Shown: piece by piece, positions 36,159-44,708 of the stretch | How the letters are laid out: each line of letters starts with the position of its first letter | Numbering within the stretch: position 1 is the first letter of the stretch | Origin: Alistipes sp. | GTDB taxonomy: Bacteria > Bacteroidota > Bacteroidia > Bacteroidales > Rikenellaceae | Assembly (NCBI GenBank): GCA_017631255.1 | Contig: JAGBTP010000006.1 | Span: 1-59,911, forward strand | Reading direction: 5' to 3' | Length of the DNA: 59,911 nucleotides | The notes under the pieces: generated by a model | Told to the model about the DNA's origin: nothing | The model's database searches: none | What the model saw: only the letters and a program-made list of their open reading frames with translations | Translations under genes and position numbers: made by a program

Positions 36159-36483
36159 AGCCTAAAGTGTAAAAAAAGTTAAAACCTACCTTGTGGTGTA
36201 ATGTTTAGATGGGGGCGGGTTGCAAGGTCTCGACATATGCCGTAGCGGCATAGTTAAGCATTGTAAAGTTAGTATAAAATATTGGAATCTCCAAATAATA
36301 GGTGTTGTATCCACGAACATAGTGGCGATATGTAAGGAGCGCGCGTGATGGTGAGGTGCTGTGGATACAAAAAAGCCCTGCCGTGGATGCGTACATCTTC
36401 GAGCAGGGCTTCGGTGTTAGTGCGTGATTTTGCAATCGTCGCGCTGTGTAGTATTTACGACACAAAAGTGTCGGTTGAGAGGG
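36159..36483. other. Intergenic stretch without a convincing gene
   Basis: About 325 bases between two minus-strand operons. It holds the terminator of the lipoprotein operon (36367-36411). The rest is AT-rich without codon structure; the short open frames there look like chance. Confidence 0.6.
36367..36411 (-). terminator. Terminator of the lipoprotein operon
   Basis: Stem AAGCCCTGC/GCAGGGCTT at 36373-36381 and 36403-36411, followed on the minus strand by a T run, about 70 nt after the last lipoprotein gene. Confidence 0.8.
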
Positions 36484-36948
36484 TTAGAACCAGCGGGTGT
36501 CGAGGTCAGCATTGTCGTTAATCGACTTAGCTGTGTAAGGCGCTATTGCAGAGTTCTTAACATCGTCTGGAATAGTTGTCTTGGTGTAAATCATTGCCTC
36601 CTCCGAGCTGTTGGTTGCGGTAAGAATCATATTCTCGCCGTCGAAAGACACCTGGTAGCTACTACCCCAGCTCTCGCCGTCGGAGTATGTGCCGTTAAGG
36701 ATATCCTTCTCGACAAACCAAGTGCCCGCATAATGGCGGTAGCGACCCTCGCCGATGCGCTGGTAGTGGTTGAAAGAACCCTCAGTGTCGAATGCAACAT
36801 ATACATCGACATCGTAACCCTCAGGTGCGCAGTGCCACTCGCCAACCACGAGCGATGTGAGGTTTATGGACTCAGCCTTCTCCTTCGAGCAGCCCAACAA
36901 GGCAAATGTGCATAGCACAAGCGCCATCATATAAAATCTTGCTTTCAT
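36484..36948 (-). CDS. Small lipocalin-like lipoprotein
   Basis: 154 residues. Lipobox ALLGC (Cys20) after the start MKARFYMMALVL. The rest is a single beta-barrel type domain: VVGEWHCAPEGYDVDVYVAF, then SFNHYQRIGEGRYRHYAGTW and YQVSFDGENMILTATN, the G-x-W start and strand order of the lipocalin-like lipoproteins common in Bacteroidetes. Its ATG overlaps the stop of the subtilase gene (TAATG), so it is translationally coupled to the protease. This makes an inhibitor or chaperone role conceivable, but that is inference. Confidence 0.78.
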   Translation of the reverse strand: MKARFYMMALVLCTFALLGCSKEKAESINLTSLVVGEWHCAPEGYDVDVYVAFDTEGSFNHYQRIGEGRYRHYAGTWFVEKDILNGTYSDGESWGSSYQVSFDGENMILTATNSSEEAMIYTKTTIPDDVKNSAIAPYTAKSINDNADLDTRWF

Positions 36949-38963
36949 TAGAACCATCCTCCATTAGTTGAATATACACCACGCGAGATGATCGACACCT
37001 CACGCTTAATCTCGGTACCACCAATGTTATTGCCGCCGCCAAGCTGACCGCCACCAGCGATAGCCGATACGGTAATCTTAGCAGAGCCATTCTTGGTACA
37101 CTTAATCTCAAGTAAGCCCTTCTTCATCGTTGGGTTGCCGCTGATGCCGAGTGTCTCCTTTGCCTCGTCGCTAACCTCCACACCTAGGTATGTGAGGTCT
37201 GTTGCTGAGCCGCCAAAGTACTCCGCAAGGTCGATGCTGCAACGCTCGCCTGTGGCTACCACGATAGATGGTGTGCCCTCGATCTGCATAAAGAGGCGCC
37301 AAGTGTCGATAGCGCCTGTACCCATACGCTTGTAGTAGTCGTTGAGCACCACAGCGTTAGAGACACCGTTGTAAGGCTTGGTGCCGTCCAAAAGGAGTGA
37401 GTTGATGTCGTTGACTGATGTGAGAACGATATCGCGATACTCGTCGCCATTGAACTTCTTGCCAATCTTTGCAGCGTACGAGATGCCGAGTGCCACAACG
37501 CCTGAAACATGTGGGCAAGCCATAGAGGTACCCTCCATCCAAACATAGTCGTCGCCCGCTACCTCTCTAACGCAAGTAGAGAGAATCTGGCTCTTGTTCG
37601 ATGAGTTCTGCGCGCCGATTGAGTAGTCGCCACCAGGGGCTGCGATGTTGCAACCACGACCATAGTTAGTGTAGCCCGTAGGCAGGTAATCAGGACCGTA
37701 GGCAGTCACAGATACGCAGATAGGTAATGCACCAGGATAGCCTGCGTTGGATGTGGTCTCGTTGCCCGATGCGAAGATTACAAGGTTCTGTCCGATAGAT
37801 GGGTGGTTGCAGTTCTCTGGGTTAACGAAATACTTGATGGCGTTGTACTCGAGCGATGTCGCGTTGATATAGGCGTTATCGCTAGCGTATGAGCCTGGGT
37901 CGTAGCCGTATGAGCACTGTGCGATGCAAGCGCCATTGTCGGCAGCGTAGATAAAGGCGTTGCTCATATCACGATCGCTGGCAGCATAGCTACCGTCAAA
38001 TACCTGACAACCCATAATTCTTACGCCGTCGCCATTGCCTGAACCACCTGCCACTGAGCTTACGCCGATGCCGTTGTTGTTGACGGCGGCGATGATGCCC
38101 GCAACATGGGTGCCGTGTCCTGACTCGCCACTTGTGGTCCAATTAATCTGGCCATTAGAGTAGCCCGCAGTGTTGAAGTTATAGCCGTAGATGTCGTCGA
38201 CATACTTGTTGCCGTCGTCATCTACACCTGCAACGCCATTAAGCTCCGCCTCGTTGACCCACATAGAGGCCGCAAGATCGGGGTGGGTGTACTTCACAGG
38301 GCCGTCGATAACCGCTACAACGACATCGGGTGATCCTGCGCACAATGTCCACGCGTCGAGTACACCTACATCGGCACCCTCGCGTGCTGTTTCAGCGATG
38401 CTCTTATCGCCCGTATTGTGCAGATTCCACTGATAATGAGCGTATAGATCGTTAAACGATATCTCGGTAGCTTTAGTATCGGCATAGCTGCCCTCACTAA
38501 ATGGGCGTACCTTATAGTCAGCAGCAAGTGTCACCATTGTATTGTACTCAATGGCAGAGATGTGCTTGCTAGGTGCAACCTCGGCAGCGAACTTGCGAAC
38601 AGGGATATTGCTGTCGAAGGTGACGCTATACCAGCGGTGCAAGCCGAGTTCGCGTGCAAGGCGCTCGTTCTTAGGGGTGCGGAGCGCTGGCTCGAAGCAG
38701 ATAATATTCTTATCGACGAAAATGTCGCTCTTAACAGCCTCCATTTCGCCACTCTCAATGCGTGCGATAGTCTCCTCCTCGAGGAACAAAAGCAGAGTAC
38801 CCTCCTTGCAGTTGTCGATGGTGTTGCCCACGAGTTTCTGCGAAAGGATGACCTCTGCATCTGTTGCCATCTCTCCCTCGACCACTCCTGCATCTTTGGT
38901 GCAGGAGATGGTCATAAGGATAGATATAATAGCAACGCTAATCGCTATTAATGAGTTCTTCAT
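36948..38963 (-). CDS. Subtilisin-like serine protease, lipoprotein
   Basis: 671 residues, a secreted S8 peptidase anchored by lipid (lipobox MTISC, Cys21). A propeptide of about 170 residues precedes the catalytic domain. The triad is complete: Asp in VVVAVIDGPVKYTHPDLA (near 219), His in HGTHVAGIIAAV (near 284), Ser in GTSMACPHVSGVVAL (near 478); the oxyanion Asn is in VIFASGNE. The C-terminal 120 residues look like an Ig-type domain ending in a Gly-rich segment. It is flanked in a tight operon by four other lipoproteins (1 nt after the BACON protein). The substrate is unknown. I see no type IX secretion C-terminal domain. Confidence 0.93.
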   Translation of the reverse strand: MKNSLIAISVAIISILMTISCTKDAGVVEGEMATDAEVILSQKLVGNTIDNCKEGTLLLFLEEETIARIESGEMEAVKSDIFVDKNIICFEPALRTPKNERLARELGLHRWYSVTFDSNIPVRKFAAEVAPSKHISAIEYNTMVTLAADYKVRPFSEGSYADTKATEISFNDLYAHYQWNLHNTGDKSIAETAREGADVGVLDAWTLCAGSPDVVVAVIDGPVKYTHPDLAASMWVNEAELNGVAGVDDDGNKYVDDIYGYNFNTAGYSNGQINWTTSGESGHGTHVAGIIAAVNNNGIGVSSVAGGSGNGDGVRIMGCQVFDGSYAASDRDMSNAFIYAADNGACIAQCSYGYDPGSYASDNAYINATSLEYNAIKYFVNPENCNHPSIGQNLVIFASGNETTSNAGYPGALPICVSVTAYGPDYLPTGYTNYGRGCNIAAPGGDYSIGAQNSSNKSQILSTCVREVAGDDYVWMEGTSMACPHVSGVVALGISYAAKIGKKFNGDEYRDIVLTSVNDINSLLLDGTKPYNGVSNAVVLNDYYKRMGTGAIDTWRLFMQIEGTPSIVVATGERCSIDLAEYFGGSATDLTYLGVEVSDEAKETLGISGNPTMKKGLLEIKCTKNGSAKITVSAIAGGGQLGGGNNIGGTEIKREVSIISRGVYSTNGGWF

Positions 38964-38964
38964 G

Positions 38965-40884
38965 CTACTTTACGAATTTGCGTGCTGACTTACTCATTGC
39001 CACTGCAGATGGGTCGTATGGAAACTCCGACGCATCGGCGCAGTTGTTTGGATCGAGATACAATGGCACGCGTACCACAGGGCTATTGTTATCATCCGAG
39101 TCCTTAGAGAAGTAGATAAGGGTCAATGGCTCGTAGAAGTAGCAGTACGACATTGTGAGAGGCGCGTTCTTCTTACCATACTGCACGAGGTCGAGGATAA
39201 TCTCGTCGTCGGTAGGGTAAGTCGTGTCTGTCACATCGCCAACATATACATCGTAGTAGTAGTCCACAACATCTCCGTGAATCTCCACCTCGAGTGGCAA
39301 TACTGCCCAGCCGTCAGCATCGCTGAACTCCTCGGGGTAGAGCTCGATAAGCTCAAAGCCATCGTAGTAGTTGTCGGTGTTGATGGTGATGTACGATGAA
39401 GATACCGCCTTAGCAGGTGTTGTAATCACATCCGAGAAGTAGACATCGGTATTGAACTCGCCACTATGCTCGTCGATGCCGAATACATATACGCGATACT
39501 GCGACTCAGGGTAGAGACCTGTAAACTCGAATGTCTGCGAGCCCTTGTTACCAACGATGCGGTAGCAGGTTGCGATGTTGTCGTAGTAGCCTTTGTCTAC
39601 ATACCACTGTGCCGCCTCACGGATAGTCTCCTGAAGCTCCTCGGCAGTGTCATTAATGCCACATATATCAATGTAGTATAGTGATGTTGTAGGCTCTACA
39701 TCAAGTGATGCTTTAACACGGTAGTGGGTAACCTTGTCGATTGTAATCTCGAACGATGGCACAGCCTCAGGATTGTAGGTGAGGGTGTGAATCTTCTCGC
39801 GCTTAATCTCGGTGGTAGCCATACCGTACTCATAGCCGAAGTAGTAGATGTAGTAGTCGGTATCCTCCTCGTGAAGAAGGTATGACTTAGAGCAAGAGCC
39901 GAAGTTTAGGTATGACACATAGCCATCAATCTTGTTAAAGTAAGCGATGAACTCATCGTCGGTAAACTCCTCTACCACAGTGGCTGGTAGTACGATAGTA
40001 GCGTACTGATCCATATTCGAAGCAGTGATATCATACGATACGCGATCTGTGTTCACTGCCACATTTGAGAGTGTGAGCACATTCTCCGATGGAGCAACAG
40101 GGCCTGTCTTGAAGGTTGTGTAGACCACATCCGACTTAATCTCGCCCTTATTGCTTACTGCGCAACCAAAGGCGTAGAACTCAGTGTCGCCATTGAGCTC
40201 AAACTGCTGTGTTGCTTTGCCAACAAGGGTAATCTCTGCCACAGCGGCCTCTGCGTCGTAGCCAGCGTATGCACCGTAGTAGATTGCATTTGAAATATCA
40301 ACCTCGATAAGACGCTCGAAGTACATCTCAATAGTAACACCTGGCGACTGCTCCAAGGCTGTCTCCATACTCTTCACTGAGTAGTACCACGCGTAGTAGC
40401 GGATGTTCTCAGGCGTAGGTGTGGTGGTCATACTAACGAAAGGACCGTTGATCTCAAACGCGAAGTCGATATTCATCTCAACCTCAACAGCCTCGCCACT
40501 CTGTGTAACGACGATCTTATCCTTGCTCTTGCCATAGTTGAGCGTAATCTCAGCAAGTCGTGTCGAGCCGGTGATGTTGGTATCTACAACGAAGCATACC
40601 TCGCCCTCGGTTGAGAAGTCGAACGAGTGAATCCAGTCGACATTGTTGCTCACCTTTGCACTCATAAGCTCTGCGTTGAAGCTCTGAATAGGCTCGCCAT
40701 CCTCAGTCTCAAGGGTGTAGGTGAAGTAGTAGTCACCACCATCGGCCTTTACCTGGACTGCATTATCATCAATCTTCAATACGACAGATTCGGTTGGGGG
40801 AGTGGGCTCCGTCTTTGGCTTCTCGCAAGAGGCAAGACCAAGGAGTGCCACTGCCAATATCAAAAATGATTTGAAAGCGTTCAT
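38965..40884 (-). CDS. BACON-domain lipoprotein with three Ig/FN3-like modules
   Basis: 639 residues. Lipobox GLASC (Cys20). Residues about 25-125 form a BACON domain (VSNNVDWIHSFDFSTEG, then AEITLNYGKSKDKIVVTQS). The rest is three modules of about 110-120 residues, each ending in a motif of the type Y-x-x-Y-x-F-G followed by a TT/T strand (FYAFGCAV near 236, YYIYYFGYE near 343, YRVYVFGID near 463), then a last beta region. The same module is repeated five times in the lipoprotein at 41.5-43.5 kb. It is probably a surface adhesin or binding protein; the ligand is unknown. Confidence 0.8.
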   Translation of the reverse strand: MNAFKSFLILAVALLGLASCEKPKTEPTPPTESVVLKIDDNAVQVKADGGDYYFTYTLETEDGEPIQSFNAELMSAKVSNNVDWIHSFDFSTEGEVCFVVDTNITGSTRLAEITLNYGKSKDKIVVTQSGEAVEVEMNIDFAFEINGPFVSMTTTPTPENIRYYAWYYSVKSMETALEQSPGVTIEMYFERLIEVDISNAIYYGAYAGYDAEAAVAEITLVGKATQQFELNGDTEFYAFGCAVSNKGEIKSDVVYTTFKTGPVAPSENVLTLSNVAVNTDRVSYDITASNMDQYATIVLPATVVEEFTDDEFIAYFNKIDGYVSYLNFGSCSKSYLLHEEDTDYYIYYFGYEYGMATTEIKREKIHTLTYNPEAVPSFEITIDKVTHYRVKASLDVEPTTSLYYIDICGINDTAEELQETIREAAQWYVDKGYYDNIATCYRIVGNKGSQTFEFTGLYPESQYRVYVFGIDEHSGEFNTDVYFSDVITTPAKAVSSSYITINTDNYYDGFELIELYPEEFSDADGWAVLPLEVEIHGDVVDYYYDVYVGDVTDTTYPTDDEIILDLVQYGKKNAPLTMSYCYFYEPLTLIYFSKDSDDNNSPVVRVPLYLDPNNCADASEFPYDPSAVAMSKSARKFVK

Positions 40885-40898
40885 AATGAATACTATAA

Positions 40899-41534
40899 TT
40901 AAAATTTTCTCATCGCTCGTACGCGATTGATAGCCTTCTTATCGTGACCATAGTCCGCAAAGTCGCCCGTTGCAAAGCTTATAGCATATGCGCCCTGCAC
41001 GCCGTACTCCTCCGATGACCAGTAACCGTCGTTTACGCCGGTAGCGATGGTCTCAAAGCCCTTCTCCGCAAGGGTTGCGTTAATAGCCTCGACATTTGCG
41101 GCAGCCTTAGCAAGCTCGCTAGGTGCTGGAAGGTACCACGACGAGAGACCAAGGGCGTTCTTGTTGTCGCACCAAGCAACGGCGGGATAAATCTCCTCCC
41201 AATTCTCCTGCTGCTTGATGTATGCGGTGTTGCGCGCGCCATCCTCACGCGAGAACTCACCGCCCTGAACAACCAACATAATGTAGTCGGTAGACCACTG
41301 TGTCATACCCTCGTCAACTGAGATGATAAGACCGTGCTCGCCGCTCTCGTCGACATATGCAACGATACCCTCTGCGATACCTGATTTGTAGTAGTCTCCT
41401 GGCTTGTACTTAGGCTCCTCGGTTACGGGTGGCTCTGGCTCGACGCCTGGTTCAGGGTCGGTGGTTACCGACTCTGAACAAGCGAATACGAGCATTACCA
41501 TAGCCAAAAGAAAAGGTATAAACTCTCTTTTCAT
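40899..41534 (-). CDS. DUF1566-like lipoprotein
   Basis: 211 residues. Lipobox VFAC (Cys19), a Pro/Glu-rich linker (TDPEPGVEPEPPV), then one globular domain with the pattern WYLPAPSELAKAAANV and YWSSEEYGVQGAYAISFATG and a final INRVRAMRKF. That resembles the DUF1566/Lcl-type lectin-like domain also found in fibrous surface proteins. Function unknown; such domains may bind protein or carbohydrate. It lies 3 nt after the large modular lipoprotein and 14 nt before the BACON lipoprotein. Confidence 0.78.
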   Translation of the reverse strand: MKREFIPFLLAMVMLVFACSESVTTDPEPGVEPEPPVTEEPKYKPGDYYKSGIAEGIVAYVDESGEHGLIISVDEGMTQWSTDYIMLVVQGGEFSREDGARNTAYIKQQENWEEIYPAVAWCDNKNALGLSSWYLPAPSELAKAAANVEAINATLAEKGFETIATGVNDGYWSSEEYGVQGAYAISFATGDFADYGHDKKAINRVRAMRKF

Positions 41535-41537
41535 AGT

Positions 41538-43463
41538 TTACTGCTGTGGATAGGTTGTACGAATGATTGTGTAGTTGCCGTCTGGATCGTAAACAGCACC
41601 TGCATAGTAGATTACATCACCGTTCTCGTAGTTCTTGTCGAAGATGGAGAAGTAGTACTGGTTGGTAACCTCGTTTACATAGGTTGTCTCGTGCTCCTCC
41701 TGAAGGTATGCAAGGAGAGCCTCATCTGACATAGTGTAAACAGAGTCGTCGTTCACGATGTGGCTCATAGCGAACTTAGAAACAGCGGTCTCATCGTCGA
41801 TGTAGAACCAAGCTGCGATGGTTGTACCCTCCTTATTGAAGAGAATCTCCTCTACATGAGGGCCCTCCTTCATCTCCTTGGTCTTGATCTCCTTGAAGAA
41901 TGCCTGAGTTGTGTATGTGCCATCAGGTACCAAACCTACGGCGTAAACAATGTACTGAGTGTTAGGCTCGAGATCTGTGATTCTCCAAGAGTTGTAAGAT
42001 GTCTCCAATGCGCGTGACAACCACTCCTCACGACTCATCTTCGATGGATCCCACAACTGGTTGATAAGCTCGTCGTTATACTTCTTGATAGCTGCGTCGT
42101 TGCGACCATACTCACGGTAAACTGAGTAAGGCATAATGTTGAACATATGAGGCATAGGGGTTACATATGGGTCGAACGATACAGAAGCCTCGGTTGTGGT
42201 AACCTCAGCTACGGTAACAAGGATATCAGCGTCTACCATATCAGCCTCCTTGGTGTGGAACGACACCTTTGTGAGAGGAGTAGTGATCTCGCCACCGAAG
42301 TAACCGAATACCAAACAGTAGTAATCCTTGTTAGGAATAAGTGGGCACTCGCTTACAGAAGATGTACCAGAGTAGATGTGGTTGCCGAGGTAGCTGCCCT
42401 GAGAGCGGATGATCTCAGACATAATCTGCTCGTCAGAGATGGTGTTGCCATTCTCGTCGATGAAGTACTCCTGCAACTCGAAGAGAGCTACATATGACTC
42501 AGAGTGGTCTGGTGCGACATAGAATGTAGCGCGGTCATCCTCAATGTTACCCTGAGTTACCTCAAAGGTATTCATAGGAGGACGAGCGGTCTGTACCATC
42601 TGTACGGTAGCCTCAGTGGTAGCAGTACCGTCAGCACCAATACCGATAGCAAATACATAGTATGCGTTAGAAGCCTCGATACCATCCTCAGCGGTAAAGT
42701 CGTGAGCGATAGTGCCGAATGCTGAGATAGCACCAACGGCATAAGGTACGGTTACGCTATTCTCCGATGCCAATGCAACGATGTAGTCAGCGATGAATGC
42801 TGGCAAGTTGGCAGCGTCACTCAAGCAGTACTCCTCGTACATAGCAGCTGGGAATACATCGTAGTAGTAACCTACGGTGTCGTCCGATGGGATGATGGTC
42901 ACTGAGAATGAGGTAGCAGTTACATTGTCGCCAATCAAGATCTCGAAGTCGCAGTCGAGCTGCTGAACCTTGGTAGTGGTGAATGTGAACTGGTTTACGG
43001 TAGTCTGAGCCTCGCCAGTGGTGCTGATGCCGTACATATAGAGTACATACTCGGTGTGAGCCTCGAGGCTTTTGTAACGCCACTCTATATCGCCATAAAC
43101 GAGGTTATCGTTTAGGAGTTGAGTAAGCGTCATGCCGTAGTAGTCAGCCACATAGTTGAAGTACTCGATGTCGGTAGCAATAATTGCCTCGTCGGTCTCA
43201 GGCATCTCCTCCTTGATCTGGAGTGAGTACCAATAGGTCATCTCCTTGTTGTTTGGCTCGATTGAGAACAAAACATCGCCAGAGTGGAGTGCCTCAAGCG
43301 TAACGGTGAAGTCCTCCATAGCGTAAGGCTTGCCCACCTCTACGGTGTTCTCGTCGCCTGGCTCAGGGGTTACAGGTGTAGTTTTCTCCTTGGTACAGCT
43401 TGCTGCTCCGAATGAGAGTGCTGTAACGAGAAACATTGACACTAAAGAATAGAGTTTTCTCAT
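41538..43463 (-). CDS. Lipoprotein of five tandem Ig/FN3-like modules
   Basis: 641 residues, lipobox GAASC (Cys23), first gene of the operon. After a short linker there are five modules of about 120 residues. The conserved end of each falls near residues 138, 265, 381, 503 and 621 (EYVLYMYGIS, YYVFAIGIGA, YYCLVFGYFG, QYIVYAVGLV, VIYYAGAVYD), followed by TT and a T-rich strand. Between the first and last strands each module has a helical insertion (for example PAAMYEEY and PYSVYREYG). I do not recognise a described family. The same module appears in the neighbouring BACON lipoprotein, so they probably share a job. Surface exposure is likely but not proven. Confidence 0.75.
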   Translation of the reverse strand: MRKLYSLVSMFLVTALSFGAASCTKEKTTPVTPEPGDENTVEVGKPYAMEDFTVTLEALHSGDVLFSIEPNNKEMTYWYSLQIKEEMPETDEAIIATDIEYFNYVADYYGMTLTQLLNDNLVYGDIEWRYKSLEAHTEYVLYMYGISTTGEAQTTVNQFTFTTTKVQQLDCDFEILIGDNVTATSFSVTIIPSDDTVGYYYDVFPAAMYEEYCLSDAANLPAFIADYIVALASENSVTVPYAVGAISAFGTIAHDFTAEDGIEASNAYYVFAIGIGADGTATTEATVQMVQTARPPMNTFEVTQGNIEDDRATFYVAPDHSESYVALFELQEYFIDENGNTISDEQIMSEIIRSQGSYLGNHIYSGTSSVSECPLIPNKDYYCLVFGYFGGEITTPLTKVSFHTKEADMVDADILVTVAEVTTTEASVSFDPYVTPMPHMFNIMPYSVYREYGRNDAAIKKYNDELINQLWDPSKMSREEWLSRALETSYNSWRITDLEPNTQYIVYAVGLVPDGTYTTQAFFKEIKTKEMKEGPHVEEILFNKEGTTIAAWFYIDDETAVSKFAMSHIVNDDSVYTMSDEALLAYLQEEHETTYVNEVTNQYYFSIFDKNYENGDVIYYAGAVYDPDGNYTIIRTTYPQQ

Positions 43464-43620: not shown

Positions 43621-43650
43621 CAAATGTAAATAAAAAATCGAATTTTGCAA
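43621..43650 (-). promoter_or_regulatory. Promoter of the five-lipoprotein operon
   Basis: Minus strand: TACATTTG at 43628-43621, a 19-bp spacer and TTG at 43650-43648. It is the only good match in front of the operon and implies a leader of about 150 nt. Confidence 0.65.
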
Positions 43651-43786
43651 AATTGTTGCATTTTTTCACCTTCTAAAACACTGTTATTCACCATATAATC
43701 TCACGCGCATATGCGCCCAGAGGTGGTTGCAGGGCGATTTTACTTGTGTTATAAATTTTACTTATGTGTAAATCAAAATTTCCGAT

Positions 43787-44103: not shown

Positions 44104-44283
44104 ATGAACGCAAAAGAGAAAGTATTGGCAACTATGGTAGAGGCTGGTGAGCCTATGAACGCAGGTAAGATTGCAGAGCTCAGTGGCCTTGATCGCAAGG
44201 AGGTAGACAAGGCGATGAAGGAGCTCAAGGAGGAGGGCGCTATCGTGTCACCTGTGCGTTGCAAGTGGGCGCCAGCAAAGTAA
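44104..44283 (+). CDS. Mini winged-helix protein (59 residues)
   Basis: 59 residues with the segment [20 protein letters not shown], followed by [18 protein letters not shown]. This is the helix-turn-helix plus wing of a MarR/Lrp-like fold reduced to its core: helix 1 ([14 protein letters not shown]), helix 2 (AGKIAELSG), recognition helix ([16 protein letters not shown]), wing strands. It could be a small DNA-binding regulator or a protein-protein module. It follows the Cys-rich gene by 13 nt and ends before a strong terminator. It belongs to a known short protein family in Bacteroidales by appearance, but I cannot name it. Confidence 0.72.
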
Positions 44284-44531: not shown

Positions 44532-44708
44532 TTACTTCTTAGCCTCCTCGACAGATACCTGACGGAACTCCTTCAAAAGCTTAGAGAGCTCCAATGCTGC
44601 CTTACGAGCACGAGTACCCGCTGCCTTATTATTCTTCTCTACCTGCAATGCTGCGTTAGCTGCAAAAGCCTCATACTGAGCTGCGATGTTTTCTACCAAA
44701 GTCTTCAT
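44532..44708 (-). CDS. Histone-H1-like small basic protein
   Basis: 58 residues, a single helical protein rich in Ala, Lys and Glu: MKTLVENIAAQYEAFAANAA then NNKAAGTRARKAALELSKLL. This matches the small histone H1-like (Hc1-type) proteins found throughout Bacteroidetes, which bind DNA. It has its own promoter (44741-44769) and terminator. The gene is convergent with the mini winged-helix gene. Confidence 0.85.
   Translation of the reverse strand: MKTLVENIAAQYEAFAANAALQVEKNNKAAGTRARKAALELSKLLKEFRQVSVEEAKK

Follow-up and report, generated by a model that had tools for sequence, protein, structure and literature searches.

A lipoprotein subtilase gene and a small lipocalin-like lipoprotein gene form a conserved pair within a five-gene locus of Alistipes sp.

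Which products of a lipoprotein gene cluster belong together? The question is raised by five adjacent minus-strand genes of Alistipes sp., one of which encodes a subtilase (peptidase family S8). They lie on contig C70 of genome G000 (85.9% complete, 1.82 Mb, 76 contigs), analysed over 59,911 nucleotides and called the window here. An earlier sequence-only reading had proposed that the five proteins form one membrane-anchored complex that captures and cuts an outside substrate. We found that the conserved core of the locus is smaller. It consists of the S8 gene (gene 4) and the small lipoprotein gene that follows it (gene 5, the partner). These two make up a portable two-gene cassette, and the operon in the window is one more of its settings.

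Gene 4 (36948..38963, minus strand) encodes a 671-aa lipoprotein with its lipobox Cys at position 21. By the Peptidase S8 criteria it is predicted to be a complete pro-subtilase, in agreement with the sequence-only reading. Pfam placed Peptidase_S8_N at residues 97-185 (58.8 bits, cut-off 30.5) and Peptidase_S8 at residues 213-519 (121.2 bits, cut-off 21.8), and D220, H283, N401 and S480 were invariant in 26/26 aligned sequences, the window's included. From general knowledge of subtilases, we take D220, H283 and S480 to be the catalytic triad and N401 to be the oxyanion Asn. The C-terminal domain had no Pfam match and ends in a conserved tail, N-G-G-W-F-COOH (36951..36965, minus strand). Gene 5 (36484..36957, minus strand) encodes a small lipoprotein of 157 aa, or 154 aa from Met4 at 36948, a start that we prefer because the family profile begins there. 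Its lipobox Cys (Cys20 from Met4, Cys23 of the 157-aa form) falls in a nearly invariant column of alignment A2, and the protein ends in D-T-R-W-F-COOH (36487..36501, minus strand). Its resemblance to Lipocalin_4 reached 20.6 bits in the window's own protein, below the Pfam cut-off. When 38 partner domains were scanned with Pfam, Lipocalin_4 (E 0.01) was found in 32, DUF5640 in 7, and four other families in one or two members.

We found that the S8 and partner genes occur together in many genomes. A search with gene 4 gave matches in 44 of 61 genomes. Counts of pairing were made with S8 matches of at least 169 bits and partner matches of at least 70 bits. By these counts, 70/74 partner matches lay within 3.5 kb of an S8 match, 69 of them on the same strand. 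Conversely, 70/78 S8 matches had a partner nearby, and the nearest partner was downstream in 65/70. The window's genome holds five S8 genes of the window type, and all five are paired (5/5). We opened 40 neighbourhoods, from 20 other genomes and the window's own; 80 named loci were fetched, with neighbours viewed in 32. Among these were 51 loci with 61 S8 genes of the window type, including the window's, and 57/61 of these genes had a same-strand partner within 1.5 kb. Of the remaining four, three lay no more than 0.9 kb from the end of a contig, and the fourth had its partner on the other strand.

The two genes also share a history. Distance matrices of S8 and partner sequences were correlated (r 0.79), a value equalled in 0/2000 full shuffles. 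Swapping partners within genomes reached this r in 0/5000 trials (3/5000 in a 34-pair subset), and therefore the pair appears to have been duplicated and inherited as a unit. In the distance comparison, the nearest relatives of gene 4 and of gene 5 were the two members of one and the same pair, from a goat caecum genome (L106).

The settings of the pair differ widely. In one, the order is SusC-SusD-lipoprotein-S8-partner, and such loci often contain, in addition, another S8-partner pair together with genes for a C10 protease and a BACON lipoprotein. In another it is SusC-SusD-DUF4984-LRR/BACON-S8-DUF1573-partner (the SusCD/LRR type). Elsewhere the pair follows GH53 and GH2 genes, or lies in the order SusCD-Mx1 peptidase-DUF4302-S8-partner, or lies next to tRNA-synthetase genes, the S8 gene being accompanied there by a gene for a longer protein with the partner domain at its end.

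Two kinds of locus deserve mention in their own right. Tandem S8-partner pairs were seen in the SusCD locus L078, with relatives in L067, L075, L077, L079 and L081. L078 also encodes a streptopain-like C10 protease that includes a Spi inhibitor domain (L078:14039-15778) and a small BACON lipoprotein (L078:15781-16368) that is mostly present in the relatives; loci of this type look like protease-rich utilization loci, the domains having been scanned in L078 only. Separately, two partner-domain proteins with a -PFL tail (L237:6228-7718 and L239:8121-8609) had no S8 gene nearby, and each of their genes lies near a gene whose product has the identical last ten residues.

We found that the C-terminal tail of the protease is conserved although the linker before it is variable in length and sequence. 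All 61 fetched S8 proteins of the window type (61/61) end in W[LFM]. These were chosen by a profile of GWL-type sequences (E 1e-60), so this count speaks for the GWL family and not for all S8 proteins. G669 and W670 were invariant in the S8 alignment (A1). Among 140 unique S8 open reading frames of all types, the tail was present in 74 and absent from 66 (ends viewed for 60 of the 66).

Similar tails were found on most partners. In a comparison set made from the window and 40 neighbourhoods and filtered for overlap, an end of the form [FWY][LFM] was present in 44/44 lipoprotein S8 proteins, 9/9 long partner-domain proteins and 20/32 small partners, versus 0/94 other lipoproteins and 8/358 non-lipoproteins. 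SusD proteins (0/30) and efflux proteins (0/29) had none. Counting all 60 partner-domain proteins, 40 had such an end and 47 a wider hydrophobic pair. A [TS]R site lay within the last 16 residues of 42/47 tailed partners versus 5/94 other lipoproteins. In the protease, the 40 residues before the catalytic domain contained [TS][RK]x in 52/61 S8 proteins, compared to 45/305 windows of 40 residues drawn at random from later parts of these proteins and 36/430 in other lipoproteins. We also considered the tail as a genome-wide sorting signal and rejected this idea: the pattern GGNTGGYTNTRA, which does not cover TAG stops, gave 10 matches versus 8 for the reversed control, the other matches being counted without a reading-frame check.

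S8 proteases of Bacteroidota can be carried by type IX secretion, and we found that those of the GWL type differ from such cargo. A type IX sorting domain was present on 20/22 scanned S8 relatives outside the GWL group; these comprise 13/13 that were picked for sorting-domain-like ends and 7/9 others, one of the seven scoring below the cut-off. There was no match in L130 and L132, and weaker S8 relatives lay outside the scan. In contrast, Pfam found no sorting domain in 28 C-terminal domains of GWL-type S8 proteins or in the window's S8 protein. We considered whether the C-terminal domain of the GWL type derives from that of type IX cargo (CTD), and hhalign gave no support (probability 0.5%, E 0.12).

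The genomes differ in the same way. SprA was not found in 37/37 genomes of the genus searched, G000 with its 85.9% completeness included, and was found in 23/24 other-order genomes. The exception, G044, has a GWL-type S8 gene and partner in a SusCD/LRR-type locus (G044:C2, L103). By hand count, 31/38 SprA-negative genomes had a strong partner match, compared to 0/23 SprA-positive genomes; two of the latter (G046 and G053) had a strong S8 match without a partner. In a tree of S8 sequences (35/61 GWL rows and 9/13 CTD rows), the GWL group needs a single change, with a branch support of only 83/66, and the CTD-type row nearest to it is L113, labelled Rikenellaceae. At the DNA level, loci from Alistipes montrealensis (L112) and from a metagenome-assembled genome labelled Alistipes sp. 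(L110) aligned with loci of the genus at 66-76% identity over 1.4-3.6 kb, which points to Rikenellaceae without proving it. Tree and SprA pattern would fit a single replacement of the sorting domain. The S8 protein of the window locus is not type IX cargo: it has no sorting domain, and its genome gave no SprA match.

The type IX-domain S8 proteins of other Bacteroidota (for example L117, L124, L128, L131, L135 and L148) resemble the window's in their catalytic family, in Peptidase_S8_N where this was scanned (L121 and L128), and in that several lie in SusC/SusD-like settings. They differ in carrying a sorting domain instead of the GWL tail, and L128, the one scanned, has a PorV-like gene downstream instead of a lipocalin-like partner. 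By eye, 12/13 type IX-domain S8 proteins also start with a lipobox-like signal peptide, L134 being the exception. Lipobox and sorting domain were seen together in L113, L117, L121-L125 (two in L124), L128, L131, L135 and L148, a combination that is odd for type IX cargo.

Are the five lipoproteins of the window exposed at the surface? Each has one acidic residue within positions +1 to +4 after the lipid-bearing Cys, and therefore surface exposure is plausible. In three of the five the sequence is C-X-K-[DE], which lacks one acid of the optimal export signal C-X-K-(D/E)2-X given for Capnocytophaga canimorsus in an excerpt of PMC5080379. An acidic residue at +1 to +4 was found in 43/44 S8 proteins, 24/32 partners and 19/22 SusD proteins, and in 0/2 periplasmic controls, only 2/29 efflux proteins being lipoproteins.

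How might the pair work? We suggest that a lipid-anchored pro-subtilase is held and controlled at the outer membrane by its lipocalin-like lipoprotein partner, and we give this reading about an even chance of being right. Subtilases are cleaved between prodomain and enzyme. The window's subtilase would be exported as a lipoprotein, with the lipid ahead of an inhibitory prodomain. Cleavage at or near the conserved [TS][RK] linker site between prodomain and enzyme would then release the mature protease from the lipid; because the lipid Cys precedes the prodomain, the mature enzyme probably sheds its own anchor. The partner would keep its lipid, bind the mature protease, and hold and control it at the outer membrane, with the tails as likely contact points: -NGGW[L/F] in the protease and a similar pair in most partners. 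Genes 1-3, with their FN3-like, Lcl_C and BACON domains, probably serve to bind a protein substrate or a matrix outside the cell. We infer the binding, the tethering or control, the surface location and the substrate capture from the sequence features described above.

The role of the partner as anchor and regulator, and of the tails as contacts, is suggested by analogy with dentilisin (PrcB-PrcA-PrtP) of Treponema denticola. According to excerpts of the dentilisin report (PMC8167434), the acylated subtilase loses its N-terminus, which bears the acyl group, the lipoproteins PrcB and PrcA are proposed to retain the enzyme, no PrtP was detected without PrcB, and PrtP has eight conserved C-terminal residues after a variable domain. 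Both systems thus have, as far as these excerpts go, a lipoprotein operon, an acylated pro-subtilase, a small lipoprotein, and a conserved protease C-terminus behind a variable region. There are also differences. The window's S8 protein scored 52.1 bits on the NCBIfam model denti_PrtP (NF033595), versus a cut-off of 300. Its best NCBIfam score was for mycosin, 67.1 versus a cut-off of 278.75, and each of these two models matched all 26 S8 relatives at E 1e-4 or better, as S8 enzymes do. The window's partner is Lipocalin_4-like, whereas PrcB was reported, in the same excerpts, to lack homologues outside oral Treponema (PMC8167434). The PrcB family was not among the Pfam matches of the 38 partner domains, PrcB and PrcA sequences not having been compared directly. 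Finally, the host is a member of the Bacteroidota and not a spirochaete, no counterpart of PrcA was identified at the window, and PrtP tolerates a C-terminal tag. On balance, the best reading by analogy is that the pair works like dentilisin while scoring far below the cut-off of the dentilisin protease family.

Several observations weigh against this picture of a partner-held protease. The dentilisin excerpts report that a C-terminal His-tag on PrtP left activity unharmed (PMC8167434), so a free PrtP C-terminus is not required there. In SusCD/LRR-type loci, partners without a hydrophobic tail stand beside S8 proteins with one, so the partner tail is not required everywhere. At the window itself, the S8 linker reads TKA and not TRA, and in the partner the [TS]R site is not at its usual spacing. 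The pairing has exceptions: 4/74 strong partner matches had no S8 gene nearby, and 8/78 S8 matches had no partner. SprA-positive genomes account for two of these eight and contig ends for two more, which leaves four unexplained. Any linked pair should co-descend, and linkage alone can give the correlation of distances. The type IX contrast amounts to one genus and one genome, hence few independent events, and weak partner-profile matches (at most 30 bits) were found in five SprA-positive genomes.

A different role for the small lipoprotein is the main rival and is possible, if tentative: it may be a cognate inhibitor that shields the cell from its own subtilase, much like the potempins that accompany KLIKK proteases in Tannerella forsythia, and its free hydrophobic tail may insert into the active cleft, as the last residues of a propeptide do in subtilases. 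In both systems a protease gene adjoins a small lipoprotein gene, in ours the pair is co-inherited, and the KLIKK protease mirolase is also an S8 enzyme. The S8 profile matched mirolase (8ehe) at E 6e-30, although many subtilases score better. From general knowledge, Phe-Leu or Trp-Phe ends would suit the S1 pocket of a subtilase. An excerpt of PMC7296668 states that potempin genes directly precede KLIKK genes and, citing then-unpublished work, that potempins inhibit the adjacent protease. However, our partner gene is usually downstream of the S8 gene (65/70), not upstream. KLIKK proteases are also, in excerpts of PMC7296668 and PMC4404884, type IX cargo with a C-terminal domain that is absent in the window's S8 protein. 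Moreover, the partners of one locus type have no tail, and the protease has a prodomain of its own. We rejected membership in the potempins themselves: a match to potempin E (8ehd, E 0.0019) vanished on removal of the signal peptide, even at E 10, so the similarity came from the signal peptide, the comparison being with those potempins that have PDB chains. By sequence, then, the window pair would not be a potempin pair.

The three genes upstream of the pair are also predicted to encode lipoproteins. Gene 1 (41538..43463, minus strand; 641 aa, Cys23) encodes a modular FN3-like lipoprotein of a multi-copy genus family. Gene 2 (40899..41534, minus strand; 211 aa, Cys19) encodes an Lcl_C-like lipoprotein; we take Lcl_C to be the family formerly called DUF1566. 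Gene 3 (38965..40884, minus strand; 639 aa, Cys20) encodes a lipoprotein with a weak BACON domain and FN3-like modules of the gene 1 family. The lipobox Cys of genes 1-4 came from a scripted scan, and together with alignment A2 for gene 5 this bears out a lipobox in all five proteins. The domain labels of the sequence-only reading fared less well. The families were recognizable, but Lcl_C in gene 2 (29.2 bits, cut-off 34.9) and BACON in gene 3 (18.8 bits) fell below the Pfam cut-offs, as did Lipocalin_4 in gene 5. The claim that genes 1 and 3 share the same modules held in part. Direct BLASTP between them gave only E 0.13, and fn3 matches in both were weak (E 0.02-0.03). However, both match the same third proteins, and a joint profile matched fibronectin-type FN3 structures at E 1e-4 to 2e-3, single stretches being mostly below threshold alone.

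The five genes are likely transcribed as one unit, judging from their layout. Their intergenic gaps are 3, 14, 1 and -10 nt, the last being -1 when gene 5 starts at Met4; with that start, the open reading frame list agrees with the gaps described previously. A match to the Bacteroidota-type promoter, TTTG-N19-TACATTTG (43621..43651, minus strand), lies 188 nt upstream of gene 1. It is the single strict match within 1.5 kb upstream to TTTG-N19-TAnnTTTG, which we take to be the Bacteroidota consensus. The operon ends at an intrinsic-terminator-like hairpin with a U run (about 36369..36411, minus strand), the one strong hairpin of its kind in a 161-nt stretch that folds at z -4.39. The earlier reading had one promoter and one terminator, and a promoter match and a terminator-like hairpin were recovered. 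Generic scans gave 20 promoter-like sites versus 16.3 in shuffles, which is uninformative, and 13 terminator-like sites versus 8.5 in shuffles, the hairpin at 36411-36369 not among them. Rfam gave no match across 35-46 kb of the window. Upstream of the operon, two small open reading frames look by eye like a histone H1-like protein (44532-44708, minus strand) and a small winged-helix regulator (44104-44283, plus strand).

We found that this five-gene order is not conserved in our sample, an outcome that the sequence-only reading had itself named as refuting its proposal. Genes 1-3 in the window order were beside 0/60 other S8 genes in the 51 fetched loci. Across four other loci, individual genes of this trio (1, 2 or 3) were matched six times in all, and the matches were distant, on the other strand, or weak. 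Three were in L083, 2-6 kb away and on the strand opposite to S8; a gene 2-like match (E 5e-13) in L093 was 0.6 kb away on the other strand; one match in L075 was 7.7 kb away; and in L078 a gene 3-like match (E 5e-4), a small BACON lipoprotein, was 2.3 kb away. Relatives of genes 1, 2 and 3 were found in 16/61, 37/61 and 15/61 genomes, respectively. In seven genomes of the genus, including G000, the families of genes 1 and 3 are present in many copies, and none of their members adjoined an S8 gene in 17 loci opened for them. Neighbouring gene 2-like and gene 1-like genes recur in G026 (L233) and, weakly, in G025 (L083). The gene set was also described previously as not matching a polysaccharide utilization locus (PUL), and this stood: a domain scan found no SusC/SusD match in the five genes or in four genes downstream, and none was evident in the open reading frame lists of the window. 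At other loci the S8-partner pair is found together with SusC/SusD.

These results bear on whether genes 1-3 have anything to do with the pair. They may be plain neighbours: three unrelated surface lipoproteins that a rearrangement brought under the same promoter as a proteolytic pair, without a common function. The two-gene core would stand under this explanation, but substrate capture by genes 1-3 would not. The composite was seen in this genome only, within our sample, and the pair occurs in many settings. From general knowledge, however, gaps of 3, 14, 1 and -1 nt across five genes are unusual for unrelated genes, and other lipoproteins lie directly upstream of S8 in many other loci; we consider the explanation doubtful. 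A single surface complex of all five lipoproteins that captures and cuts one substrate, as first proposed, is quite improbable. In its favour are the compact operon, with a single promoter match and a single terminator-like hairpin, the binding-type domains upstream of the protease, and the recurrence of gene 2-like with gene 1-like genes. Against it, the order is absent at 60 other S8 genes, and relatives of genes 1 and 3 are multi-copy and were never beside S8 in the loci opened.

Returning to the lipid-anchored subtilase held by its partner, a more specific and rather unlikely version would account for the type IX contrast as well. After loss of type IX secretion, a lineage of gut Bacteroidales would have kept its surface subtilases by replacing the sorting domain with a five-residue handle, -NGGWL-COOH, that docks in the aromatic-lined, lipocalin-like barrel of a dedicated lipoprotein. 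The partner's hydrophobic C-terminus, behind its frequent [TS]R site, would be another handle, one that closes off or gates the active site, the whole being a portable anchor-and-switch cassette placed in many kinds of nutrient loci. We found no description of the S8-lipocalin pair or of the tail in the literature searched, which mostly excluded subscription journals.

If the reading of a partner-held subtilase is right, it would explain how proteases could be displayed in Bacteroidota where the type IX machine was not found, and it would offer, in a gut lineage, a linear C-terminal signal that is easy to test. The S8-partner combination would also be a marker pair for protein-utilization loci, which PUL searches may miss because SusC/SusD need not be present.

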